This document shows positions 2,984-21,376 of a stretch of 21,376 bases of DNA, piece after piece (within the stretch, counting starts at the first letter, position 1; each line of letters opens with the position of its first letter). The translations under genes and the position numbers were made by a program. The notes beneath the pieces were generated by a model that was not told the origin of the DNA, searched no databases, and saw only the letters and a program-made list of their open reading frames with translations. The DNA is taken from positions 1 through 21,376 of IMG/VR virus record IMGVR_UViG_3300010885_009882. The stretch is one strand, 5' to 3'. The stretch is from a virus.

Positions 2984-3717
2984 GATCAAGTGAATTCGTA
3001 TTCGAAAAGTGGAGCGAAAAATACAAAAGCAGTATTAACTGTAGCCACCCTCGAGGCTTTTCACAAAAAGCACACTGTGCCGGTAAAAACAAACAGAATG
3101 AATCTGTTGAGATGGAGATGGTGTGTGAAGCGTGTGGCATGTGTGAAACACATGGCAATGTAAATGAAATTAAAAAAGGTGCTAAAGACTCAAATGGCTA
3201 TACCCGTTGCTGGCCTGGCAAACATGCTGAAGGCACCAAAAAGGGCAAGAATGGTGGGCAAGTTCGCAACTGTGTGCCCAACGAATCGCAAGGTGTGGCG
3301 GAAGGCTTAACAGAAGAGTTTGATCTTATTGAATCTATTGTTGAAGGCATTGCTGAACACAATGGCGTAGATGCTGAAGCAGTATGGGCGGACTTAGAAT
3401 CTCTAACTGAAGATGAGTTGTATGCGTTTGCTGTGACTTCTCAGTTGAATGAAGACTGGCAGAAAGCCAACAAGCGCGACAAAACAGATGGCATGAGTCA
3501 AAAGGCTGTAAATTCTTATCGCAGAGAGCATCCTGGATCTAAACTAAAGACTGCTGTGACTACCAAGCCCTCAAAGTTAAAAAAGGGTTCAAAAGCCTCT
3601 AAGCGCCGCAAGAGTTATTGTTCACGCTCACGTGGACAAATGAAGATGCACAATATTTCATGTGCTAAGACTCCAGACAAGGCTATTTGTAAAGCACGAC
3701 GTCGCTGGAACTGTTAA
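2980..3717 (+). CDS. Cys-rich basic protein, putative internal virion protein
   Basis: 245 aa, no enzymatic family recognised. The N-terminus MRSSEFVFEKW matches the targeting-like pattern of its neighbours. There are 11 Cys: two in residues 21-33 (INC...KAHC), a CxxCxxC knuckle (VCEACGMC, ~47-53), one in YTRCWPG, one in RNCVPN, and four in the basic C-terminal 40 residues. The spacing suggests metal-binding modules. At residues 105-109 stands GVAEG, a plausible prohead-protease site that would separate the Cys-rich N-terminal part from an acidic linker and a Lys/Arg-rich tail. It starts inside the ATGA overlap with the preceding gene. Its TAA shares the palindrome TTAA with the stop of the convergent desaturase gene, leaving no intergenic terminator. 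Confidence 0.7.
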   Translation: MRSSEFVFEKWSEKYKSSINCSHPRGFSQKAHCAGKNKQNESVEMEMVCEACGMCETHGNVNEIKKGAKDSNGYTRCWPGKHAEGTKKGKNGGQVRNCVPNESQGVAEGLTEEFDLIESIVEGIAEHNGVDAEAVWADLESLTEDELYAFAVTSQLNEDWQKANKRDKTDGMSQKAVNSYRREHPGSKLKTAVTTKPSKLKKGSKASKRRKSYCSRSRGQMKMHNISCAKTPDKAICKARRRWNC

Positions 3718-4418
3718 CTACGCAACTTAGCAAGTCTTAGTAGTCTAAATAGACTGAACCACATCCAGCCTATATCAAATTCAAACCAACGTCTGCTTAG
3801 TCTAGGGTTAGCAGGCTCTGCATGGTGATTATTGTGCAACTCCTCTCCCCCAATCCATATACCCCAGGGCATTAAATTGGTTGATTTGTCTTTGGTATCA
3901 ACACTCCTATACCCCCACCAATGTCCAACTCCGTTAATAACACCTGCGGCGTGAAAAGGAATCCAGAGCATTTGTATACCCCATATCAATATGCCCCACG
4001 CACCAAATAGCACAACATCAATAATGAACATTAATAAAATGCCTAGTCTACTGTGACGAGTGTACACATTGCGTTCAATCCAATCGTCCGGCGTGCCAGC
4101 ACCATATTGTTGTACCATTTCAGCATCTTTGCTGGCACTGTGATACAGGCCTGCGCCACGAAACAGCACACGGCCTATGCCGTACACATGCGGACTGTGT
4201 GGATCACCCTCTTGTTCAGTGAATCTGTGATGCTTACGATGTATTGCTACCCATTGTCGTGTAACCATGCCTGTGGTCAGCCATAGCCAAGCTCGCATAA
4301 AGTGTTCTAGTACAGGAGCAAAGATGATACCGCGATGTGCTTGCCCGCGATGTAGGTACAATGTAACACAGATTATAGTAATGTGTGTGACTATTAAGGT
4401 ATAGATAAGTTCAGTCAT
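3714..4418 (-). CDS. Membrane fatty acid desaturase (acyl-CoA/acyl-lipid type)
   Basis: 234 aa, the only convincing gene on the minus strand. All three histidine boxes of the membrane di-iron desaturases are present: HRGQAH (H23-H28), HRKHH (60-64) and HNNHH (195-199), plus an extra His in GVGHWWG (~166). Hydrophobic stretches at ~5-22, ~38-52, ~124-142 and ~144-163 fit the four-helix membrane topology. The protein is shorter than many bacterial delta-9 desaturases, but the core is intact. Such enzymes insert a cis double bond into acyl chains using O2 and reduced ferredoxin or similar. In a phage this is an auxiliary metabolic gene, probably adjusting host membrane fluidity during infection. 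It lies convergent to the gene on its 3' side and divergent from the gene at 4501, so it must have its own promoter in 4419-4500. Confidence 0.9.
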   Translation of the reverse strand: MTELIYTLIVTHITIICVTLYLHRGQAHRGIIFAPVLEHFMRAWLWLTTGMVTRQWVAIHRKHHRFTEQEGDPHSPHVYGIGRVLFRGAGLYHSASKDAEMVQQYGAGTPDDWIERNVYTRHSRLGILLMFIIDVVLFGAWGILIWGIQMLWIPFHAAGVINGVGHWWGYRSVDTKDKSTNLMPWGIWIGGEELHNNHHAEPANPRLSRRWFEFDIGWMWFSLFRLLRLAKLRS

Positions 4419-4782: not shown

Positions 4783-4979
4783 GAGCACAGGAATTTATCA
4801 AAGAAAATGCGTCAGTTGGCAGCACCAGTTCTGGCAGTGTGGCCACAGTGGCCATGCCCATGGGTGGCATGCAGTCAAGAAATCCCGATAGTTTCTTTTC
4901 TGGTAAATATACCACGGACCCTTTTCCCAACACACCGAAAAGTATGAGAAAGAAAGCAAGGAAAACAAATGTTAAGTGA
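4779..4979 (+). CDS. 66-aa protein with capsid-targeting-like N-terminus
   Basis: The peptide opens MRAQEFIKENAS, the closest parallel in the window to the 2348 gene's N-terminus, followed by a Ser/Gly/Met-rich low-complexity stretch and a basic end (KSMRKKARKTNVK). There is no predicted enzymatic core. It could be a small internal head peptide, scaffold fragment or DNA-condensing cargo. It overlaps the previous gene by ATGA and the next gene by 11 bases, so expression is coupled on both sides. Confidence 0.65.
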   Translation: MRAQEFIKENASVGSTSSGSVATVAMPMGGMQSRNPDSFFSGKYTTDPFPNTPKSMRKKARKTNVK

Positions 4980-5409
4980 TTTACTAAAGACCTATTTGGC
5001 CAGTACATTTTCGTACTATTTAAAAGCACACTATTTCCACTGGAATGTAGAAGGACCTGACTTTGGTGAATTACACGAATTCTTTTCCAACATCTACGAA
5101 GATTCCTATTCAGCTGTGGATCCCATTGCTGAATACATCCGTACCACAGAAGAATATGCTCCTGGCAGTCTCAGCCGCTTTTTAGAATTAACGCAGATCC
5201 CAGATCAAACCAAAGTGCCACGTGCTCGACTGATGCTGGAAGAATTACTCGCAGACACCCAAACAATGATTGGCATGAGCAAGCAGGTGTTTGATGCTGC
5301 CTCTACCGAAGGTCGTGAAGACATTGCAAACTTTGCTGCCGAACGCCAAAGCCAACATGGCAAGTATCAGTGGCAACTGAAAAGTTACTTAAAGGACTCG
5401 AGGGCATAA
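4969..5409 (+). CDS. Dps/ferritin-like protein
   Basis: 146 aa, close to the length of Dps subunits. Residues 21-58 follow the Dps ferroxidase pattern: H24-W-N-V-E-G, H36-E, D51, A-E55. Against the classical set (His, His, Asp, Asp, Glu) the spacing is exact, but the first Asp is replaced by S40. Dps proteins form 12-mers that oxidise and store iron and protect DNA from peroxide. In a phage the protein may protect DNA during infection or be packed with it. The changed ferroxidase residue leaves open whether iron is oxidised. It starts at ATG 4969 inside the previous gene (11-base overlap) and ends one base before the next ATG. Confidence 0.75.
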   Translation: MLSDLLKTYLASTFSYYLKAHYFHWNVEGPDFGELHEFFSNIYEDSYSAVDPIAEYIRTTEEYAPGSLSRFLELTQIPDQTKVPRARLMLEELLADTQTMIGMSKQVFDAASTEGREDIANFAAERQSQHGKYQWQLKSYLKDSRA

Positions 5410-7401: not shown

Positions 7402-7475
7402 GAGCGAACGAATATCCAGTATTGCCCGAAGATGACGGATACGATCGTTTCCGCAATCCCTACTCACCAGTATAA
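7398..7475 (+). CDS. 25-aa microprotein
   Basis: ATG at 7398 overlaps the TGA of the upstream gene (ATGA), and its TAA at 7473-7475 overlaps the ATG of the deaminase gene (TAATG). The peptide starts MRANEYPVLPEDDGYD and ends NPYSPV. The N-terminal MRANE resembles the MRxxEF series. Overlaps on both sides argue that it is translated, or at least that the reading frame couples translation to the next gene. Function unknown. Confidence 0.6.
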   Translation: MRANEYPVLPEDDGYDRFRNPYSPV

Positions 7476-8107
7476 TGCTGTTAAGTGACTTCAGAATTCG
7501 AAACCTAGACAAACTAGATCGCATTCTAGTGGATCTCTGCAGTGAAATTGTTCGAGCCAAACGTGACCACACTGACCTGGGCATGGTTGCTGCCGCAGTG
7601 CTAGATCCCAACGACATCTGCGTGAGTGCCATAAACTATCCTGCCAAAGATGGTTCACGTGTACACGCAGAACGTGCGGCAATGGATGCTTACCAGGAAC
7701 AGTTTGGCAGCATTCCTGCGGGCAGTATCATAATCACCACACTGAGTCCTTGCACAGAAGACATGCCAGATCGTCATGGCGAAAGTTGCACTGACTTGAT
7801 CAATCGTTCCGGTGTACACAAAGTGTATGCAGGCTACGCAGATCCATCACAGGATGAAGTGCGTAAAAAGTTTCATGTCAAGACCACAACAAACCCACGC
7901 ATCAAAGAACTGTGCAAGGCGTTTGCTGACACATTTTTAAAAGATCATTTAGACGAGTTATCATTCCTGGGATCACAGTGTACCAAAGACTGTTCCGGTC
8001 ATCGTGCCGGATATGAATGGTCAAAGCGCAAAGGATTACAGCAGGGTAACTCACCCTGGTCACCAAGTTTTAACAAAGGAGCCGCACTAGCGGTTGCTGG
8101 AAAATAA
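7475..8107 (+). CDS. Zinc-dependent cytidine/dCMP deaminase-fold protein with fused C-terminal Cys/His tail
   Basis: 210 aa. The deaminase signature is HAE (H64, A65, E66) followed by TTLSPC (C93) and a second Cys at C105, giving PC-x11-C instead of the usual PC-x2-to-x4-C. H64, C93 and C105 would hold the catalytic zinc and E66 shuttle the proton. The likely substrate is a cytosine-containing nucleotide, but the odd spacing leaves base or nucleic-acid deamination possible. After residue ~165 comes a separate module, C169-TKD-C173-SGHRAGYEW, a pattern I recall as a recurring tail in marine phage proteins. The gene is coupled to the microprotein by TAATG and is followed by a folded intergenic stretch. 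Confidence 0.75.
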   Translation: MLLSDFRIRNLDKLDRILVDLCSEIVRAKRDHTDLGMVAAAVLDPNDICVSAINYPAKDGSRVHAERAAMDAYQEQFGSIPAGSIIITTLSPCTEDMPDRHGESCTDLINRSGVHKVYAGYADPSQDEVRKKFHVKTTTNPRIKELCKAFADTFLKDHLDELSFLGSQCTKDCSGHRAGYEWSKRKGLQQGNSPWSPSFNKGAALAVAGK

Positions 8108-8265: not shown

Positions 8266-8526
8266 ATGACAACAAAAACATTCAACGGCGATCAAAAGAT
8301 CAAACTCACACAGATCATCAACGAAGGCATGCAAGTCATGCACGAAATTGACACGCTTCAAGGCGGTCTTAACGACACCATCAAAGCCATTGCAGAAGAA
8401 CTAGAAGTCAAGCCTGCTATCTTAAAGAAGGCCATTAAATTGGCGCACAAGGCGGAATTTGGTAAAGAAAAGCAGGATCACGAAACACTTGAAACAATTC
8501 TTGAGACCGTTGGTAAAACTCTGTAA
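8266..8526 (+). CDS. Small helical protein, probable DsbA-like dsDNA-binding/late-transcription factor
   Basis: 86 aa, all-helical and charged. The pattern (N-terminal helix with EGMQVMHEIDTLQGGL, NDTIKAIAEELEVKPAILKKAIKLAHK, acidic last helix) fits the T4 DsbA type: an 'xxxLNexIKxIaxElgvkpkxfkxaixxxhK' core at similar total length (T4 DsbA is 89 aa). DsbA binds double-stranded DNA near late promoters. It has its own promoter and a good ribosome binding site (GGAG, 6-nt spacer), so strong independent expression is likely. It overlaps the next ATG (TAATG). The assignment rests on remembered similarity and could be wrong. Confidence 0.6.
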   Translation: MTTKTFNGDQKIKLTQIINEGMQVMHEIDTLQGGLNDTIKAIAEELEVKPAILKKAIKLAHKAEFGKEKQDHETLETILETVGKTL

Positions 8527-9575
8527 TGCTACAACCTCTGCGTTCTTTCGGCAATAAGTCACTGAGGGGCAAGATATGTCTCAGCCCGTTTAACACAGTG
8601 CATATCAATATAGCAGGCGATGTACATATTTGTCCGTGTCCAGGCTGGCAGCCGCAACAGGTAGGCAATATCTTTCGACAAACTTTGGACGAAATATTAT
8701 CGTCTCCTACGGCAGTGGCCATTCGATCTAGTATCATTGACGGATCTTATCAATACTGCAATGAAAAACAGTGTGCGTTGATACTCAATGGTCATCTTAA
8801 TGATCATTCCAACGTTCCGCCCAACATAGCACAGCAACTTGATGACCCAACTCGTTATCAACACCCAACCACTATTGCATTCAATATAGATCGTGTGTGT
8901 AATCTCAGTTGTCCTAGTTGTAGGACCAGTGTTATCAAAAACACAGAAGAACAGATAGCAAAGCAACAACAAATAATTGATACAGTGGTTGCAAACCTTG
9001 TACCCAGACAATCTGATTGTGATCTAGAATTTATCACCAGTGGTGCCGGTGAAGTTTTTGCCAGCAACATGGTTATGTCTGTGTTACAACAACTTAGTTT
9101 AGACAAATTGCCAAAACTGAGACTTAATCTTCATACCAATGGATTGTTGGCACCCAGTAAATGGCATCAAATACAGCACATTGAATCAGCAGTGTTTTTG
9201 GTAACAGTGAGCATTGATGCTGCCACATCTGACACTTACGAGCAGGTTCGTCGTGGCGGCTACTGGCCTGATCTCATAGCAGCCATGAAATTTTTGCAAA
9301 ACAAAAAACAAAAACTTGGTTTTGAACTCAGAGCAAGAATGATAGTCCAGCAACGTAATTACGCTGAGGCCGAAGAGTTTTATCATCTTTGCCAAGAGTT
9401 TGGTGTCGACAGAGTAGAGTACAGTAGATTGGTTAACTGGAATACTTGGGGTATGCAAGAGTTTGTTCAAAATGATGTTTTTAGCCCAGCACATCCGGAA
9501 AGATCATCGGCACTACAAGTTATGAAAACTATCAAAACCTTACCAAACACATGGTTTGAAGGAAATTTTAATTGA
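8526..9575 (+). CDS. Radical SAM protein with N-terminal SPASM-like Cys cluster
   Basis: 349 aa. The core motif C125-x3-C129-x2-C132 (CNLSCPSC) binds the [4Fe-4S] cluster that cleaves S-adenosylmethionine. Downstream, ITSGAGEVF (~167) and LHTNGLL (~206) fit the radical SAM barrel. Ahead of the core, residues 18-83 hold C18, C36, C38, C78 and C83 with the text typical of SPASM auxiliary-cluster domains (INIAGDVHICPC...GNIF...LDEIL). SPASM normally follows the core, so the order is reversed. SPASM enzymes often modify peptides or form carbon-carbon or carbon-sulfur bonds. The partner or substrate may be the product of the next gene, whose TTG start overlaps this stop. Confidence 0.85.
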   Translation: MLQPLRSFGNKSLRGKICLSPFNTVHINIAGDVHICPCPGWQPQQVGNIFRQTLDEILSSPTAVAIRSSIIDGSYQYCNEKQCALILNGHLNDHSNVPPNIAQQLDDPTRYQHPTTIAFNIDRVCNLSCPSCRTSVIKNTEEQIAKQQQIIDTVVANLVPRQSDCDLEFITSGAGEVFASNMVMSVLQQLSLDKLPKLRLNLHTNGLLAPSKWHQIQHIESAVFLVTVSIDAATSDTYEQVRRGGYWPDLIAAMKFLQNKKQKLGFELRARMIVQQRNYAEAEEFYHLCQEFGVDRVEYSRLVNWNTWGMQEFVQNDVFSPAHPERSSALQVMKTIKTLPNTWFEGNFN

Positions 9576-10492
9576 AACTACACATAATTTTTCAGGACGA
9601 ATTATTAATTGAAATTATTCTGTTACAGAATGATGCTGTAACCAAATGGTTTAAGCATTTTCAAAAATTTACCGCCAACAAAAATTATTATAATCCCTGT
9701 CTAATACACTCTTCAGAATGGATCAATCAATACCGTGGTGTCATCAACCCGGACTGGGATGAAATACTATCGGCAATTTTGGAACTAGAAAGTCTTGGTT
9801 ATCAACTGCCGTGGTCAATTCCAGAGACATTTGATTTTCAACAGAAAACCTTGAATCAACTGCACCGTTTTTTCACTTATAATGTGTTATGGTATCACGA
9901 ACTATCTGACAACCCGACTAAACAAAATCCGTTTGATCCACAGTTCAAGCTACCCCCAGATATCAATTTTCAGCAATGGTTAGGCTTAATAAATCGCATA
10001 AACACATCAGTACACAAACTAGAAAATTTCACTGCCCCGCACGAAAATAAAACATTCATTTGCAATCAGTATCCACTATCGTTTTTGGCATTTATGCCTG
10101 TTAGAAAATCTTACACAGACTTAGAGCCTTGGTTACAATTCACCGAAGAGGAACAAGTGCATAACTTTACTGATTATTTTGCCAGTGATTTACCACAAGT
10201 TATCTTAAATCGATCAATACTAGGTAAACCTGTGCTCCAGAGTTTCTACGAAAACGATGATCTCAATGCACACGACTGTACCGGCCGACTTGGGTCGTAT
10301 GGAGGGTGTGAGATTGAGTTGAATCAGAACAGAAAGCAGATCTACCGGTCAGATCGATTTATTCAGTGGGCAGCATCTCACGGCAGAACTATAGAATCAT
10401 TACCTCTAGAATTTCCCATTGGGTATGTCAAGGATCCACAACCACTGCTGAATAAACTGCATGGATTTAAAAAAGTAGAGTTTGTTGACTAA
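9572..10492 (+). CDS. Unknown protein coupled to the radical SAM gene
   Basis: 306 aa, no family recognised. The start is TTG at 9572, overlapping the upstream TGA (TTGA), with GAAGGAA 7 nt before it; no ATG would give the full conserved-looking N-terminus. The protein is rich in aromatic residues, Asn and Gln, with an LNQLHRFFTYN segment near 90 and a DDLNAHDCTGRLGSYGG segment near 228. There are no membrane segments. The region is visibly richer in A+T than the flanking replication genes, which suggests a different origin. The overlap with the radical SAM gene makes a substrate, partner or co-transferred function likely. Confidence 0.7.
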   Translation: MKLHIIFQDELLIEIILLQNDAVTKWFKHFQKFTANKNYYNPCLIHSSEWINQYRGVINPDWDEILSAILELESLGYQLPWSIPETFDFQQKTLNQLHRFFTYNVLWYHELSDNPTKQNPFDPQFKLPPDINFQQWLGLINRINTSVHKLENFTAPHENKTFICNQYPLSFLAFMPVRKSYTDLEPWLQFTEEEQVHNFTDYFASDLPQVILNRSILGKPVLQSFYENDDLNAHDCTGRLGSYGGCEIELNQNRKQIYRSDRFIQWAASHGRTIESLPLEFPIGYVKDPQPLLNKLHGFKKVEFVD

Positions 10493-14960: not shown

Positions 14961-15169
14961 TGGAAACTAAAAAACGCACAGTGGTCAGGATGCTTACATA
15001 TCGTCTGACTGCATGGCTGTTTACAATCTTTTGGACATACTTATTTACTGGCAATCTAGGCAACTCGGCAGGCTTTGCTACCGCACTGCATATCTTATTA
15101 AGTGTTGACTATTACATACATGAACGAATCTGGCTTAAAGTTAAATGGGGGAAACTTGACTCAAGATAA
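14960..15169 (+). CDS. DUF2061 family small membrane protein
   Basis: 69 aa. The N-terminal KKRTVVRMLTYRLTAWLFTI and the ending DYYIHERIWLKVKWG are the family signature, with two hydrophobic helices (about 12-30 and 37-54) between. DUF2061 proteins are small inner-membrane proteins of unknown function, found in bacteria and in marine phages. The start overlaps the clamp stop (TAATG). The 3' end overlaps the next gene by 14 bases if that gene starts at TTG 15156. Confidence 0.85.
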   Translation: METKKRTVVRMLTYRLTAWLFTIFWTYLFTGNLGNSAGFATALHILLSVDYYIHERIWLKVKWGKLDSR

Positions 15170-16808
15170 TTTAACTGCCAAGCAGAATGACTATGCAGTG
15201 TTCTTGCCTGCTATTTCAGGATTCTATGCCACGTTCATAGGCAAGCAACGTGATCCAGTCAATGGTCCATATGTAGAACCAGCACGTATGCCACAGGGCA
15301 TGCTGGACACGGAGCAGACGAACTTGCTCAACAGTCAAAAAGGCCTGTATCCATATGTAGAACCAGCACGTGTGCCACAGGGCATACCGGACATGGAACA
15401 GATGAACTGGCTCAATAGTTCTAAAGGCCTGTTTCCATACAAGTGGAGTCTGTATTCCGGTGGTCATGCTAACCTAGATCTTAACAAGCCGGACTGGTCG
15501 GAGGATATGGTACGTAATCGTGAACCTGGCACAGTGATCTTAGGCGACTCTGGTGGATTCCAGATTGCCAAAGGCCTGTGGGAAGGTGACTGGAAAGCCA
15601 ACTCAGGTTGTGCCAAGGCACAGAAGAAGCGTGATGCTGTGCTTAAATGGTTGGATGGTGTGTCTGATTATGGCATGATCTTGGATATTCCAACCTGGGT
15701 CATCCATGACAAGAAGGCCAGTGCTGCCTGTCAGATTACCACACTGCAAGAAGCAGTTGACGCTACCAAGTACAACAATGAATACTTTATGAAGCATCGT
15801 AAAGGTGTCAAGAATGGTGGTGCCAAGTTCTTAAACGTGTTGCAAGGTGCCAATCATGCTGACGCAGACCGCTGGTACGACATGATGAAAGAATACTGTG
15901 ATCCTGCCAGATACCCCGACACACATTTTAATGGCTGGTCAATGGGTGGACAGAACATGTGCGATGTGCATCTGGTGCTACGACGTTTGGTAGCACTACG
16001 TCATGATAACTTGTTACAACCGGGTGTTCATGATTGGATGCACTTCTTGGGCACAAGCAAGTTGGAATGGGCTGTGTTACTCACCGTGATTCAAAGGGCA
16101 GTTCGTAAGTATGTGAATCCACAATTTACCATTTCCTTTGATTGTGCCAGCCCATTCCTTGCCACAGCCAACGGACAAGTATACCACGAGATTGTGTTGC
16201 CACACAACGGAAAGTGGAGTTACAGAATGAATCCCATTGTGGATGACAAGAAATATGCCGCAGACACACGCCCATTTAGCCAAGGTGTTGTGGCAGATGG
16301 ATTGATTGATACATTTGAAGACAGTCCTATTAGTCGGCGTTTACAAATGAAAGATATTTGTTACTACAAGCCAGGCGACCTAAATAAAATCGGCAAAGAA
16401 GGCAAGACATCTTGGGATTCATTTAGTTACGCATTGCTTATGGGACATAATGTTTGGCTACATTTGGAATCAGTACAACGTGCCAATCGTGAGTTTGATG
16501 CTGGCAATAGGCCTCGGATGATGTGGGATACAAACGGCGATCACACTAAATTTGAGGACATTGTAGAAGCAATCTTTGCCACGCCCGATCGTGCAGAAGC
16601 AGAGGCTATCATTGAGCAGTACGATCGTTATTGGATGGACATTGTGGGCACACGTGGGTTCAAAGGCAAAAAGGCCAAGAACGCACATACTCAATTTAAT
16701 AGCCTGTTCGAAACTGTTGACACAGATACGGAAGATAGTGTACAATCAGATGAAGAGGAATTGTCTGTAGACAATTTAGATAAACTTGAGCAGGAACAAT
16801 CTCGATGA
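15156..16808 (+). CDS. tRNA-guanine transglycosylase-fold protein, DpdA-like
   Basis: 550 aa from TTG 15156, which has GGGGG (15147-15151) four bases upstream and only 14 bases of overlap with the previous gene. ATG 15120 and GTG 15102 are alternatives without a ribosome binding site. TGT-family marks are GDSGGFQ (D131), SMGGQ (262-266, matching the GGLAVGE loop) and SFDCASP (D329, candidate nucleophile). The CxCxxC zinc site of bacterial TGT is not seen. Such enzymes exchange guanine for a 7-deazaguanine base; phage DpdA proteins do this in DNA. Near the N-terminus lies a 28-residue tandem duplication. The C-terminal ~40 residues are acidic. DNA rather than tRNA as substrate is inferred from family and context. 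Confidence 0.75.
   Translation: MTQDNLTAKQNDYAVFLPAISGFYATFIGKQRDPVNGPYVEPARMPQGMLDTEQTNLLNSQKGLYPYVEPARVPQGIPDMEQMNWLNSSKGLFPYKWSLYSGGHANLDLNKPDWSEDMVRNREPGTVILGDSGGFQIAKGLWEGDWKANSGCAKAQKKRDAVLKWLDGVSDYGMILDIPTWVIHDKKASAACQITTLQEAVDATKYNNEYFMKHRKGVKNGGAKFLNVLQGANHADADRWYDMMKEYCDPARYPDTHFNGWSMGGQNMCDVHLVLRRLVALRHDNLLQPGVHDWMHFLGTSKLEWAVLLTVIQRAVRKYVNPQFTISFDCASPFLATANGQVYHEIVLPHNGKWSYRMNPIVDDKKYAADTRPFSQGVVADGLIDTFEDSPISRRLQMKDICYYKPGDLNKIGKEGKTSWDSFSYALLMGHNVWLHLESVQRANREFDAGNRPRMMWDTNGDHTKFEDIVEAIFATPDRAEAEAIIEQYDRYWMDIVGTRGFKGKKAKNAHTQFNSLFETVDTDTEDSVQSDEEELSVDNLDKLEQEQSR
15267..15434 (+). repeat. Two tandem 84-bp copies inside the TGT-like gene
   Basis: Copy 1 is 15267-15350 and copy 2 is 15351-15434. 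They match at 72 of 84 bases by hand count and at 20 of 28 residues (PYVEPAR(M/V)PQG...KGL(Y/F)). A third PY begins right after, at 15435. The reading frame is kept. Confidence 0.9.
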
Positions 16809-17341
16809 TTAGAGCAGGTCACGAAAACATTAAGTTTTTCACTGGCACGGAAGTAGAACATACTCCTGCCTATGGTAAGAAAACACTATTTGTAGTTGGG
16901 CTACAGCCAGCCAGCGAGATTCAAGACTGGATAGATGACTTTGCCGCCTATGAAGATGCCGCACAGCACATTGAACACATTTACTTTGGTGCCAACATGA
17001 GCTTTCCTAATCTAAAGGTCAATGACGGTGCTGAATGGGCCAAGTGGGAAAATATGATTTATCATTTCCTGGATCGAGACTATGTCTGTACACTAGATGT
17101 AGATGTGTCCAGTGCGGAAGGCCTAATCGAAGGCGGGTTTTGTGAACGACACAACTTCATTCCAATGATTTCAGTAAAATTACCCTATGTACAACTGCTA
17201 GGATACAATGCTACAATCAAGATTGATGACAGAGATTTTGCCGCAACCAATCCAGGTGTGTGGTGTCACAGCGTACACACATTAAAAAAACGCACAGTAT
17301 TCACTCCATGGTCTAAATACACAAAGGACAAAGCAGTATGA
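16805..17341 (+). CDS. Unknown protein of the deazaguanine block
   Basis: 178 aa. It starts in an ATGA overlap with the TGT-like gene and ends in one with the next gene, so it is tightly coupled to both. An alpha/beta fold is likely (TLFVVGLQ, HIYFGANMSF, VCTLDVDVSSAEGL). A conserved-looking core reads CERHNFIPMISVKLPY then IKIDDRDFAATNPGVWCHS, with three Cys and several His that might bind metal. I recall similar proteins in marine T4-like phages but no assigned function. Position suggests a partner of the base-modification enzyme. It lacks the CxxxCxxC of QueE. Confidence 0.65.
   Translation: MIRAGHENIKFFTGTEVEHTPAYGKKTLFVVGLQPASEIQDWIDDFAAYEDAAQHIEHIYFGANMSFPNLKVNDGAEWAKWENMIYHFLDRDYVCTLDVDVSSAEGLIEGGFCERHNFIPMISVKLPYVQLLGYNATIKIDDRDFAATNPGVWCHSVHTLKKRTVFTPWSKYTKDKAV
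17313..17319 (+). promoter_or_regulatory. CTAAATA box, possible late promoter
   Basis: CTAAATA followed by CAC, 18 bases before ATG 17338. It is the same TAAATACA core found at both starts of the divergent region at 4419-4500. It lies inside the upstream coding sequence, so it could be chance. Confidence 0.25.
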
Positions 17342-17790
17342 CACAACGAGAACAAGCACTGGCAGAACAAGCCGTCAGGATCATGAGCCAGGCAGAAAGA
17401 AAAATCTGGGTCACATTCCGCAAAGAAGGCATTCACAAGTACCCTGCTGCCGCAAGTGATCCTGCACTGGCCACGGGCGATGAGTATGATGTTAGCTTTC
17501 TCGGAGTGCCGCATAGACATATCTTTCACTTCCGTGTTTGGATTGATGTATTTCACAACGATCGAGACATTGAATTTATTCAGTTCAAACGCTGGTTAGA
17601 GAAACTGTATGCTGGCGGAACACTGGAGCTCAACTTTAAAAGTTGCGAAATGATCAGCGATGATCTGTACTTACAAATTGCCGCTCGGTATCCCGATCGT
17701 GCAGTGTGGATCGAAGTGGCCGAGGATGGCGAGAACGGCGCTTTGATCAAATATGAAATTTCTCGTCCTAATCTTAACATTAAAATTTAA
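17338..17790 (+). CDS. Possible T-fold (QueD-like) protein
   Basis: 150 aa. After an N-terminal helix comes VPHRHIFHFRVWIDV (H59, H61, H64), then RDIEFIQFKRWLEKLY, then LELNFKSCEMISDDLYLQIAARYP and VWIEVAEDGENGALIKYE. This order of a His-rich strand, a helix with a DF-like start, a second helix after a Ser-Cys-Glu, and a last strand with Glu resembles 6-carboxytetrahydropterin synthase (QueD), which follows FolE in 7-deazaguanine synthesis. The similarity is in layout, not in clear identity; the usual QueD Cys and zinc HxH are only partly matched. ATGA overlap with the upstream gene. Confidence that the gene is real is high, in the function low. Confidence 0.55.
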   Translation: MTQREQALAEQAVRIMSQAERKIWVTFRKEGIHKYPAAASDPALATGDEYDVSFLGVPHRHIFHFRVWIDVFHNDRDIEFIQFKRWLEKLYAGGTLELNFKSCEMISDDLYLQIAARYPDRAVWIEVAEDGENGALIKYEISRPNLNIKI

Positions 17791-17800
17791 AGGATTTACC

Positions 17801-18022
17801 ATGGGTAAACAAGCAGTATATTCTAACCCCAAGGCCCAGGCCGCGCAGGATGAGCTGGAACACTTTCTAGACTTCTGCCGCGATTATGGATATCGCTTCA
17901 ACGAAGCAGACTTGTATAACTTCAAGAGTTATGCTTGGCAACAGTACAACAAATTTTCACAGGGCAAAAATGCTCGTGACATGTGGGCAGAGGACGCTCG
18001 TCGCTTGAATAGACCTATCTAA
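17801..18022 (+). CDS. Small protein of unknown function
   Basis: 73 aa from ATG 17801, chosen over an upstream in-frame start because AAGGA (near 17789-17793) sits 7 bases before it and the longer version would overlap the previous gene. The peptide is rich in aromatics and charged residues (ELEHFLDFCRDYGYRFNEADLYNF...YAWQQYNKF), suggesting a small helical protein. No motif or membrane segment is evident. It ends two bases before the glycosyltransferase ATG. Confidence 0.65.
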   Translation: MGKQAVYSNPKAQAAQDELEHFLDFCRDYGYRFNEADLYNFKSYAWQQYNKFSQGKNARDMWAEDARRLNRPI

Positions 18023-18023
18023 C

Positions 18024-19226
18024 ATGAGAAAATTATTCTACATGGGTCTCGAGAGTTACGAGGCTCGCTATACACTACAACTCACAGAGTGGAATCGACG
18101 TGTGTTTGACAGACGCGGACTTGATGTAGTTTATGTTCCTGGCACAACCATTGATAACTCACAAGCAATCAGTGTAGGACAAGTGCTAGACGCACATGGT
18201 CGCAGTTATTTTTCAATGAGCCAAATGATGAACTTGGTTCAAATGATGCGTAAAGGAGAAGTCACAAGTGAAGATGTTATCTACTTTGAGGACATGTTTC
18301 AACCAGGTATTGAATCCTTGCCATATATATTTGATCAAATTCCTGCTGATCAGCGGCCCAGGGTATATGTGCGCTGTCTTGCTCAGTCCATTGATCCTGA
18401 TGATTTTGTACATGTATGGGGTATGGCAAAGTGGATGGGCCTCTACGAACACATGGTTAATGAATTCGTTACAGGAGTTCTCGCCACAAACGAAGAGATG
18501 GTTGCTCATATGCGCATTGCTGGATGGACTGCTCCTATATATAATATTAGTGGCCTAGCATTTGGTAAAGAAGAAGTACTGGAACGTATTGGTGGCACAG
18601 ACAATATCAAACCATTTGGCGAACGCAAACGTCGGGTAGGATTTGCCGCACGTTTTGACCAAGAGAAGCAACCGGACTTCTTTATGGATCTGATTGAGAT
18701 GTATGGCCACTTGACCACAGAGCCCTGCGAGTTTGCCATCTTTTCCGGTGGCCCATTGCGTAGTAACAATCCCCGGTATCTTGAACGTGCTAGAATGTAC
18801 GAACAAGAAGGCAAGTTAAAAATTTACGACAACATTAGCAAGAACGAATACTATGCTCATCTTAACGACACTCGTGTGCTTTTTAATTGTGCTCTTCAAG
18901 ACTGGGTCTCTAACACCGTCAGTGAGGCTGATACTCTTGGTTGTAACGTGCTCTACCCTGCTTATCGCAGTTTCCCCGAGACTTTCGCAAATGATCCCAA
19001 CCGTTTATACGTTCCCTGGTCTATAGATGATGCTTATCACAAAATGCAAAACTTGTTACGTGATCCGCACCACAACATGGGCTTGATTTCAGATTGGAAC
19101 AACGGCACTATTGATCGCGTAGTTGACATTATGACTGGCCAAGGCGAGCAATGGAACCGTGCAGGCAATCGCTATCGTGACCACACTGCACATGAAAAAT
19201 ACCAAGTAAGAAGAATCGAAGAATGA
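18024..19226 (+). CDS. GT-B fold glycosyltransferase (GT4-like)
   Basis: 400 aa. The N-terminal half ends near TGVLATNEEMVAHMR, a common inter-domain feature of GT4 enzymes. The C-terminal half starts with RRVGFAARFDQEKQPDFFMDLI (the 'GRL..KG.d.li.A' equivalent), then a FSGGP strand, a KIYDNISKNEYYAHLNDTRVLFN segment (the phosphate-loop region) and TVSEADTLGCNVLYP, where E is the usual nucleotide-sugar-binding acid. It would transfer a sugar from a nucleotide donor. Its acceptor could be a virion protein, a host glycan or a modified base. The next two genes would supply sugar nucleotides. ATGA overlap with galE. Confidence 0.75.
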   Translation: MRKLFYMGLESYEARYTLQLTEWNRRVFDRRGLDVVYVPGTTIDNSQAISVGQVLDAHGRSYFSMSQMMNLVQMMRKGEVTSEDVIYFEDMFQPGIESLPYIFDQIPADQRPRVYVRCLAQSIDPDDFVHVWGMAKWMGLYEHMVNEFVTGVLATNEEMVAHMRIAGWTAPIYNISGLAFGKEEVLERIGGTDNIKPFGERKRRVGFAARFDQEKQPDFFMDLIEMYGHLTTEPCEFAIFSGGPLRSNNPRYLERARMYEQEGKLKIYDNISKNEYYAHLNDTRVLFNCALQDWVSNTVSEADTLGCNVLYPAYRSFPETFANDPNRLYVPWSIDDAYHKMQNLLRDPHHNMGLISDWNNGTIDRVVDIMTGQGEQWNRAGNRYRDHTAHEKYQVRRIEE

Positions 19227-20167
19227 ACATAGTAGTCACAGGTGTTGCTGGTTATATCGGTGGACAAGTTGCCTTGCAGTTAAAAGATGCAGGGCATACT
19301 GTTACGGGAATTGACCGCAGGCCGTTACAACCGCATCAAAAAGGTCTACTTGACAGTTTTGTATTGGCAGACTTTGATAGTGATACTGCATTTAAAAAGT
19401 TGTTAACTATGCGGCCCGATGCTGTTGTGCATTGTGCCGGCTCTAGTCTAGTTGGTCCCAGTATTAAGAATCCATCCGATTATTACTTTAACAATGTGGC
19501 CAAGACATTGGAGTTGATTACTTTCATAACACGAGCCATGCCTAAGACTAGAATTATCTTTAGTTCCAGTGCGGCCACATACGGCGAGCCTATTATGGTT
19601 CCGTGTGACGAAGTTGATCCCACAGAGCCAGTTAGTCCTTATGGCCAAAGTAAACTGATGATTGACATGATGTTAGAATCGTACCACCGAGCATACGGAC
19701 TTGATTATGTCTCATTTCGTTACTTCAACGCCTGCGGTGCAGATCCCCGAGGGCGACATGGACAAGAACCTGGTGCCACACACATCATTGCCCGTGCGTT
19801 AGAAAGCCTTAGAGATGACCAAGAGTTTACGCTGTATGGCGACAACTATCCCACACCAGATGGCACTTGTGTTCGCGACTATGTACACGTAGATGATATT
19901 GCGCGGGCACATGTGTTGGCGTTAGATCAAACAATTCTTGCAGGCATTTACAATCTTGGATCGAACACAGGTACCAGTAATCGAGAAATCATTACGGCAG
20001 CGGAACGTATCACAGGCCGGACATTAAAAGTCATAGTAGGTGAACAACGTGTAGGCGATCCTCCTATGCTGACAGCCAGTGCAGATAAGTTTAATGCTGT
20101 AGCCGGTGCATGGCAATCACATAAGTTGGATGACATGATTCAGCATGCATGGGCCTGGTATGTTTGA
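19223..20167 (+). CDS. galE: UDP-glucose 4-epimerase-like SDR (GalE family)
   Basis: 314 aa, extended short-chain dehydrogenase. The NAD-binding loop is GVAGYIGG (7-14), then D31 for the ribose, SSSAATYGEP (114-122) with the catalytic Ser/Thr, and the YxxxK pair Y140/K144. FRYFNACGADP and RDYVHVDDIARAH are typical GalE text. GalE interconverts UDP-glucose and UDP-galactose through a keto intermediate; related enzymes act on other sugars. ATG overlaps the upstream TGA (ATGA) and the end overlaps the aminotransferase gene. It most likely feeds the adjacent glycosyltransferase. Confidence 0.9.
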   Translation: MNIVVTGVAGYIGGQVALQLKDAGHTVTGIDRRPLQPHQKGLLDSFVLADFDSDTAFKKLLTMRPDAVVHCAGSSLVGPSIKNPSDYYFNNVAKTLELITFITRAMPKTRIIFSSSAATYGEPIMVPCDEVDPTEPVSPYGQSKLMIDMMLESYHRAYGLDYVSFRYFNACGADPRGRHGQEPGATHIIARALESLRDDQEFTLYGDNYPTPDGTCVRDYVHVDDIARAHVLALDQTILAGIYNLGSNTGTSNREIITAAERITGRTLKVIVGEQRVGDPPMLTASADKFNAVAGAWQSHKLDDMIQHAWAWYV

Positions 20168-20756
20168 TAAAATTTTACAGTTTGAAAGATCACTAGCAGA
20201 GTTCACAGGCGCACCTTACGTGATCATGACTGATTGCTGTACACACGCTATCGAACTGTGTTTACGTTATGATCAAGTTACGGAGTGCAAGTTTACTCCT
20301 TACACCTATCTGAGTATTCTGATGACCATGCACAAACTAGGCATCGAGTACGAACTACTGGATCATGAATGGCAAAGATGGGTTGGCGAATATCCCATAC
20401 TTGGAACACGTATTTGGGATAGTGCTCGTAGACTTGAAAAGAACATGTACAGAGAAGGCTCTATGCAGTGTTTGAGTTTTGGGCACGGTAAACCTTTGCA
20501 CATTGGACGTGGCGGAGCAATCTTGTTGGATGATGTTGTTGCATATGATACTATATTGGCACGACGATATGATGGTAGAGATTTGACTATATCGCCGTGG
20601 GAAACACAACAAGTGTTCCGAGTTGGATATCATTACAAGCCCACAATCGAAGAGGCTGTTCGTGGATTAGAGTTATTGGAAGATGTAAAACTAAATCAAC
20701 CAAAGCCAATCTCAGTTGATTACCCAGATTGCAGAAAAATAACCATTGTTCCTTGA
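20160..20756 (+). CDS. Half-length DegT/DnrJ-like PLP aminotransferase
   Basis: 198 aa from ATG 20160 (203 aa from ATG 20145; both overlap galE). The fold type I marks are GAPYVIMTDCCTHAIELCL (~17-35, binding the PLP phosphate region), IWDSAR (D87, in the place of the Asp that holds the pyridine nitrogen) and SFGHGKPLHIGRGGA with K111 as the Schiff-base Lys. Family members are usually about 370-400 aa and transfer an amino group to a keto-sugar. This one ends soon after the PLP-lysine part, so it lacks the usual C-terminal domain. It could be a natural short form that works as a dimer, or a decayed gene; the reading frame is clean and coupled to galE, which favours use. Confidence 0.65.
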   Translation: MFDKILQFERSLAEFTGAPYVIMTDCCTHAIELCLRYDQVTECKFTPYTYLSILMTMHKLGIEYELLDHEWQRWVGEYPILGTRIWDSARRLEKNMYREGSMQCLSFGHGKPLHIGRGGAILLDDVVAYDTILARRYDGRDLTISPWETQQVFRVGYHYKPTIEEAVRGLELLEDVKLNQPKPISVDYPDCRKITIVP

Positions 20757-20781
20757 CAACGACCTAAATACCCTGTATAAT
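20753..20781 (+). promoter_or_regulatory. Near-consensus sigma70 promoter
   Basis: TTGACA (20753-20758), 17-bp spacer, TATAAT (20776-20781): both hexamers are perfect. The -35 box overlaps the stop of the previous gene. A CTAAATA box (20764-20770) sits in the spacer. The start is expected near 20788, about 35 nt ahead of the TTG. Confidence 0.8.
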
Positions 20782-20822
20782 AACACAATGGCAATCCACT
20801 GCCTTAACATCGGAGACTATGA

Positions 20823-21376
20823 TTGAAAAAAGAATTTGCACCACATCCAGTGTTTCACTCGGATACTAAAAAGAAATTTATACCAGACCGCCTTGGCAAT
20901 AATGCCATGGAACCATCCCCAATTACAACAGCAACTGAAATTATGTCAGACAAAGATTACCAAGAAGGTTACCTAGGCGATGCTATTCGCTTCAAGATGA
21001 AACGTGACAACAAACGTTTCTGGGCCGGCGATAACGTCAGTGACTACCTGCACGAAGGTGATCGAGAACGACTAATTGACGAAGCCGCAGAAGCGTTTGA
21101 AACAGTGCTGGATCGATTGCTGATTGATCGTGAAACAGATCCCAACTCTAAAGGCACAGCAAGACGCTTGGCCAAAATGTACTTTAACGAAATAATGGCA
21201 GGTAGATATGAACCAGAACCAGATGCAACAGCTTTCCCCAATGATTCAGCGGATCGATATGAAGGAATGCTTGTGGTGCGTAGTGAGCTTCGCAGTATGT
21301 GCAGTCATCATCACCAACCTGTCAGTGGCGTTGCTTATATCGGGATTATTGCCGCTCAAAAGCTCATTGGCCTTAG
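20823..21376 (+). CDS. folE: GTP cyclohydrolase I, 3' truncated by window edge
   Basis: 184 codons visible. The TTG at 20823 directly follows an in-frame TGA (20820-20822), so no longer start is possible, and GGAG (20812-20815) lies 7 nt before it. The ATG at 20819 in another frame gives only 16 codons. GTARRLAKMYFNEIMAG corresponds to the 'TP.Rva.my.e...G' helix of FolE, and SMCSHHHQPVSG is the zinc and catalytic site (Cys, His, His). It turns GTP into dihydroneopterin triphosphate, the first step toward folate or 7-deazaguanine. The N-terminal ~60 residues (PHPVFHSDTKKKFIPDRLGNN...) have no clear counterpart. Next to a TGT-like enzyme, the deazaguanine route is the likelier purpose. Confidence 0.88.
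   Translation, partial: MKKEFAPHPVFHSDTKKKFIPDRLGNNAMEPSPITTATEIMSDKDYQEGYLGDAIRFKMKRDNKRFWAGDNVSDYLHEGDRERLIDEAAEAFETVLDRLLIDRETDPNSKGTARRLAKMYFNEIMAGRYEPEPDATAFPNDSADRYEGMLVVRSELRSMCSHHHQPVSGVAYIGIIAAQKLIGL

Follow-up and report, generated by a model that had tools for sequence, protein, structure and literature searches.

A candidate pathway for sugar-decorated 7-deazaguanine in the DNA of jumbo phages, encoded beside a putative DpdA-like protein

Introduction

Why would a phage keep genes of queuosine-type base synthesis, a glycosyltransferase and sugar enzymes together, downstream of its DNA polymerase gene? This question was raised by a 21,376-base viral contig (IMGVR_UViG_3300010885_009882, positions 1-21,376), called the window here, in which such a cluster occupies positions 15156-21376. 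7-Deazaguanine modifications are known in phages as camouflage against restriction. We found that a 7-deazaguanine DNA-modification reading of the cluster was well supported. The whole explanation, that the phage makes sugar-decorated 7-deazaguanine in its DNA, is offered with modest confidence. The window probably came from a large myovirus-like (jumbo) phage, because its family B DNA polymerase had its nearest relatives in the jumbo phages Phosso (469 kb) and Atu_ph07.

An earlier reading of the letters alone (the original prediction) had placed a tRNA-guanine transglycosylase (TGT)-fold enzyme, FolE and a possible T-fold protein within 6 kb and proposed a pathway through preQ0. It had overlooked the glycosyltransferase and sugar genes at 18024-20756, which we found to belong to the cluster. 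Genes are named here by function or by their first position (Table 1).

Results

Conservation of the gene cluster

The genes lay on one strand within 6.2 kb, with overlapping or adjoining frames, so that the predicted proximity of the three genes held, and their linkage was conserved. Loci were retrieved using the 17338 T-fold protein alone, and a neighbour was scored if it lay within 3 kb. The TGT-like gene was found in 60 of 63 loci, the 16805 homologue in 52 of 63, the glycosyltransferase in 59 of 60 and a small open reading frame (ORF) of 73 residues in 50 of 60. Because of the first three counts, the clustering is not chance. Most jumbo relatives that were mapped kept the order TGT, 16805, T-fold, glycosyltransferase. 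One could argue that folate, sugar and hypothetical genes with nothing in common came together by chance, since FolE on its own also serves folate synthesis. However, the linkage was kept across hundreds of contigs and in 11 named lineages of phages, and the probability of such a coincidence is negligible. The 60 loci (59 with the glycosyltransferase) had been chosen as best matches to the window protein and are hence related to each other; the five named lineages that carry the glycosyltransferase are therefore the more independent evidence.

The TGT-like protein

The 15156 frame was read from a TTG start, with GGGGGAAA directly 5' of it. D131 (in DSGGFQ) and D329 (in FDCASPF), the two residues singled out in the original prediction, were invariant in an alignment of 19 diverse members, and the DSGG and FDxASPF motifs were present in 218 of 218 homologues. 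Profile comparison with bacterial Tgt was collinear through the catalytic half, pairing VLQG with IIQG, FNGWSMGG with FDGYAIGG and ISFDCASPF with MFDCVMPTR. The hhalign score was 38, and the best of 60 shuffled or reversed decoy profiles reached 27 (0/60 as good). These results bore out the TGT-fold assignment. Sequence-profile searches of the PDB with the TGT-like, 16805 and T-fold families gave no relevant match, and hhalign against single sequences of CAjan, X1 and phi19:2 was uninformative.

The strongest context evidence for a DpdA-like role came from Vibrio phage 2.275.O. Its homologue (hidden Markov model E-value 3e-71) carries DSGGFQ and YDSSSASQF. The annotated neighbours were QueF (preQ0 reductase), the COG1738 preQ0 transporter family (YhhQ), queuosine biosynthesis, GTP cyclohydrolase and QueD, and a match to the QueE profile (3e-75) lay beside the homologue. 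This cluster is of the canonical queuosine type. Because the homologue sits among such genes, the 15156 protein is treated here as DpdA-like, a putative DNA guanine transglycosylase.

TGT enzymes classically act on tRNA, and galactosyl- and mannosyl-queuosine are sugar-bearing tRNA bases. The system might by analogy modify tRNA in a queuosine-like manner, or make a small molecule. However, the CxCxxC motif of the zinc site of tRNA-acting TGT was found in 0 of 218 homologues, the cluster adjoins a DNA polymerase gene, and neither queA nor queG was noticed in the annotated neighbourhood. We consider a tRNA or small-molecule role very unlikely and infer that DNA is the target.

The T-fold protein

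The AlphaFold model of the 17338 protein (pLDDT 90) showed the b-b-a-a-b-b order of a T-fold. Its best PDB matches were QueD/PTPS proteins (Foldseek probability 1.00), and its comparison with E. coli QueD gave Z 10.7 and rmsd 2.4 over 108 residues. In hhalign against a phage QueD profile, the probability was 85.7 and 0 of 60 decoys were as good. The suspected T-fold was thus confirmed in the model. The family retains the zinc-site HxH, the upstream His and the C-terminal Glu. However, the catalytic Cys of CxxxHG(H/Y), the QueD nucleophile, was replaced by Leu in 236 of 236 members. The 17338 protein was therefore rejected as the QueD that it had been taken for. A true QueD, with the Cys kept in 113 of 113 cases, is encoded separately, farther downstream in relatives.

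The T-fold gene was found near FolE, and mostly near QueE too, in PA5oct, ACP17, phi19:2 (phiST group), Phosso, RHph_I1_18, X1, Bakedbeans, Ahp1, D479, BUCT-ZZ01 and MA9V-3. PA5oct was an exception in that FolE and QueD lay elsewhere in the genome, away from the T-fold gene.

FolE, QueD, QueE and the lack of QueC

The predicted FolE was also recovered (Table 1). It carries the C-x-H-H motif, and a full-length copy is present in relative L267. Family searches over 23 related phage records, some of them fragments, found FolE and QueD in 23 of 23. A QueE-type radical SAM protein was likewise found in all 23, in 22 of them through TIGR03365 (below cut-off) and in PA5oct through the QueE profile. 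In most jumbo relatives, about 40 inserted residues shift its third cluster Cys (CxxxC...CDS; e.g. L267:19002-19877). In the case of QueC, no acceptable match was found in these records, fragments included. The one apparent PF06508 (QueC) match that was checked by Pfam was an NAD synthase (5.6e-50).

These results upheld the 7-deazaguanine part of the original prediction but not its product. Since QueC was not found, preQ0 is unlikely to be made unless the host supplies it, and the pathway likely ends at 7-carboxy-7-deazaguanine (CDG) or a derivative. The lack of QueC, together with the presence of the T-fold protein, suggests that the 17338 protein acts on CDG, and our best guess for its reaction is decarboxylation. 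DpdL is reportedly such a CDG decarboxylase, and dDG and dCDG modifications are said to occur in phage (attributed to Cui et al. 2023).

In several clusters, a phosphoribosyltransferase-family gene lay near QueE (L276:4920-5429; L231:15946-16377), with a possible role in salvage or activation of the base.

The conserved 16805 protein

The original prediction had singled out the 16805 protein as a possible new component, and it proved to be a conserved core gene. Its homologues adjoin the TGT gene in jumbo relatives and lie beside FolE in Acidovorax phage ACP17; PA5oct has a distant copy, separated from the T-fold gene by about 27 kb. Structure prediction was less informative here than for the 17338 protein. 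The model was of similar quality (pLDDT 89) and had no strong structural match: QueE (5th5), the one match with a related function, gave the longest of the low-scoring alignments (Z 6.1 over 130 residues), STAS proteins scored slightly higher over 90 residues, and nothing in a viral structure library matched at E < 0.001. A QueE paralogue without the Fe-S cluster was considered from motifs seen by eye and the Z of 6.1. This is not claimed, since the profile comparison with QueE fell within the decoys (3/60 as good); the radical SAM CxxxCxxC Fe-S motif was present in 0 of 225 homologues. As a guess, the protein may assist the TGT-like protein as a partner that binds the base or forms a complex.

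The glycosyltransferase and the sugar genes

GT18024 is a weak member of the Glycos_transf_1 family (E 1.1e-3). Its homologues adjoin the T-fold gene or lie one gene off in ACP17, PA5oct, Phosso, X1 and BUCT-ZZ01, and all five of these lineages have a TGT/DpdA-like protein of one of the two types seen in the analysis. The interval from the glycosyltransferase (or folE) to QueE was examined in 12 jumbo phage clusters and held 133 ORFs. The family matches, in overlapping sets, included 24 of RmlD type, 23 Epimerase and 13 DegT. In contrast, the 25 commonest families in 125 control ORFs, taken from other regions of these phages, included no sugar family. The clusters also held dTDP-glucose dehydratase, RfbH, nucleoside diphosphate (NDP)-sugar C-methyltransferase and methylcobalamin radical SAM methyltransferase types, and the NDP-sugar gene set varied from phage to phage. 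In the window, the short form of the DegT protein is conserved in relatives, and its SFGHGKP...GRGG stretch resembles the pyridoxal phosphate-lysine motif; a sugar-amine role is proposed.

The sugar genes could instead serve virion or cell-surface glycans, in which case the T-fold protein would turn CDG into the final base (by decarboxylation to 7-deazaguanine, for example), to be inserted unglycosylated by the TGT-like protein. Six named phages have the T-fold gene near FolE, often with QueE, and no glycosyltransferase in the region read, among them Cellulophaga phi19:2, Vibrio D479 and Aeromonas Ahp1. A surface role is also the usual interpretation of the nucleotide-sugar genes of jumbo phages (PMC7824862). 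However, the glycosyltransferase tracks the T-fold and TGT genes both in the five distinct lineages and in the relatives retrieved. A flippase (PF01943) and an initiating sugar-phosphate transferase (PF02397), the only two families of LPS or other lipid-linked glycan assembly searched for, were found in 0 of 22 records. Few other glycosyltransferases were present: PF00534 matches inside the clusters were GT18024 itself, the clear glycosyltransferase there. An unglycosylated base is therefore rather unlikely, and we consider attachment of the sugar to the base slightly more probable than not.

The six phages share a protein family, st12798 (L233:12798-13577; L287, L289-L291, L293), which is possibly their base-insertion enzyme.

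Another acceptor was also considered, since in T4 hydroxymethylcytosine in DNA is glucosylated. The glycosyltransferase might decorate such a base, for instance a hydroxymethylated pyrimidine, in parallel to the deazaguanine system, and a dCMP-deaminase-like gene is present at 7475-8107 of the window. However, the thymidylate synthase/hydroxymethylase family (PF00303) was missing in 18 of 24 glycosyltransferase carriers, ACP17, X1 and BUCT-ZZ01 among them, which makes hydroxymethylpyrimidine an unlikely sugar acceptor there. In addition, some phages have the T-fold gene and no glycosyltransferase, whereas the reverse was rarely seen. The probability of a different acceptor base is thus small, and 7-deazaguanine remains the preferred one.

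Several clusters showed further features. An RfbH-size DegT aminotransferase is followed by an acetolactate-synthase-like thiamine pyrophosphate enzyme in L282:10893-13224, an arrangement that recalls branched dideoxy-sugar (yersiniose-type) synthesis, and a similar DegT was seen in L277:9298-10614. B12-binding radical SAM proteins lie inside clusters (L281:8854-10776; L275:8329-10335), and some clusters match a KedN5-like methyltransferase model.

Other features of the window

The coordinates of the cluster are collected in Table 1. The perfect promoter 5' of folE was found in 20 of 171 relatives, many of them near-identical, and in 2 of 855 random stretches. Outside the cluster, the window encodes a putative amidoligase domain (PF12224) within a large ORF (1-2346), a fatty acid desaturase homologue (3714-4418, - strand), a Ferritin/Dps-like protein (4969-5409) and a radical SAM/SPASM protein (8526-10492) followed directly by an ORF with no Pfam match.

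Table 1. Genes and promoter of the proposed DNA-modification cluster in the window
Feature	Position	Strand	Basis or remark
DpdA-like TGT-superfamily protein, 550 aa, TTG start	15156..16808	+	Proposed DNA guanine transglycosylase; motifs, Tgt profile similarity, context
Conserved core protein, 178 aa, 4-nt overlap with TGT-like ORF	16805..17341	+	225 homologues
QueD-like T-fold protein without catalytic Cys, phrog_17812	17338..17790	+	AlphaFold model, PDB comparison, hhalign
Small conserved ORF, 73 aa, between T-fold and glycosyltransferase genes	17801..18022	+	Conservation in relatives
GT-B (group 1) glycosyltransferase, GT18024	18024..19226	+	PF00534 below cut-off; conserved linkage
GalE-type NDP-sugar 4-epimerase	19223..20167	+	TIGR01179 E 1e-86, above cut-off
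Half-size DegT-type aminotransferase homologue, 203 aa	20145..20756	+	PF01041 2.1e-11
Perfect sigma-70 promoter TTGACA-17-TATAAT ahead of folE	20753..20781	+	12/12 match
GTP cyclohydrolase I (FolE), cut by window end	20823..21376	+	PF01227 8.6e-11, phrog_2197, NCBIfam FolE

Discussion

The family assignments of FolE, QueD, QueE, the TGT-like protein, the T-fold protein, the glycosyltransferase and the sugar enzymes, read from sequence or predicted structure, can be arranged into one pathway. FolE, QueD and QueE, the latter two encoded downstream of the window in relatives, would convert GTP to CDG. With no QueC, the pathway would stop short of preQ0. The T-fold protein, which has kept its site and lost the QueD nucleophile, would then process CDG, possibly by decarboxylation. 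The TGT-like protein would swap guanine in DNA for the processed base, and the GT-B enzyme would attach a sugar to it afterwards. The variable cassette of GalE, aminotransferase, dehydratases and C-methyltransferases would supply the NDP-sugars, and the decorated base may shield the phage DNA from restriction enzymes. We see about an even chance of a broader proposal, in which a jumbo phage family replaces guanine with a glycosylated 7-deazaguanine whose sugar is phage-specific (dideoxy and branched sugars included). It would do so with a DpdA-like family that current models miss, a QueD-like enzyme lacking the Cys and a glycosyltransferase dedicated to the base, and the base and its variable sugar would together act as camouflage.

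The cluster resembles known systems in part. The DpdA/preQ0 phages (Enterobacteria phage 9g, CAjan and Vibrio nt-1; PMC6884629) likewise carry FolE, QueD, QueE and an insertion enzyme of the TGT superfamily in one cluster. In contrast, the present cluster lacks QueC, has the extra Cys-less QueD-like T-fold protein, the 16805 protein and the linked glycosyltransferase and sugar genes, and its TGT-like protein is too diverged for existing family models. The Cellulophaga phiST group (phi19:2) shares FolE, QueD, QueE and the T-fold family (35% identical), and no QueC was found there either; however, its locus showed no glycosyltransferase, no 16805 homologue and no TGT of the present type. The DpdL and dDG/dCDG systems are also said to stop at CDG or a product of it and not to reach preQ0, and the 17338 protein could be an enzyme of this kind. 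They are not known to include a sugar step, unlike our proposal. In T4 the principle is the same, in that a GT-B enzyme adds a sugar post-replicatively to an already modified base. It differs in the base, the enzymes and the sugar supply, and the hydroxymethylase family is absent from most carriers here.

A deazaguanine system has been reported in jumbo phage PA5oct (PMC7824862), in which we found the TGT-like, glycosyltransferase and T-fold genes represented by homologues that follow one another directly. In the sections of that report considered here, the glycosyltransferase was not linked to the deazaguanine genes, and the sugar clusters were read as polysaccharide systems. Our literature search, of incomplete coverage, found no report of a sugar on 7-deazaguanine in DNA, and the novelty of the glycosylated deazaguanine link is provisional.

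Several points weigh against the proposed pathway. The main weakness is the chemistry of sugar attachment, since CDG and 7-deazaguanine offer no obvious hydroxyl for glycosylation. ACP17, X1 and Phosso showed no obvious annotated sugar-making genes beside the glycosyltransferase; these phages would have to draw on sugars of the host. The clusters also held two weak GT2-like matches, in G003 and G009, and the surface-glycan interpretation described above competes for the same sugar genes. In the case of the TGT-like protein, Pfam, PHROGs and NCBIfam gave no family match, PF01702 included. The hhalign probability against Tgt was only 34 although the motifs were collinear, so that motifs and context carry much of the weight of this assignment. 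QueD and QueE were taken from close relatives because the window ends inside folE, and neither is in the window itself; the closest relative, G001 (TGT 92% identical), has both 4-10 kb farther on, so their presence in this phage is presumed. The proposal as a whole is built on genes and predicted structures.

If the proposed pathway is true, it would join base replacement and base glycosylation, the two best-known strategies, in one system. It would also account for the nucleotide-sugar pathways found inside the queuosine-type gene blocks of jumbo phages. Isolated phages with the same genes exist (PA5oct type, ACP17, Xanthomonas X1 and BUCT-ZZ01), and the T-fold family offers an easy way to recognise deazaguanine phages that lack QueC. 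Variation among the sugar genes would point to an arms race between the phages and host enzymes that detect modified DNA.

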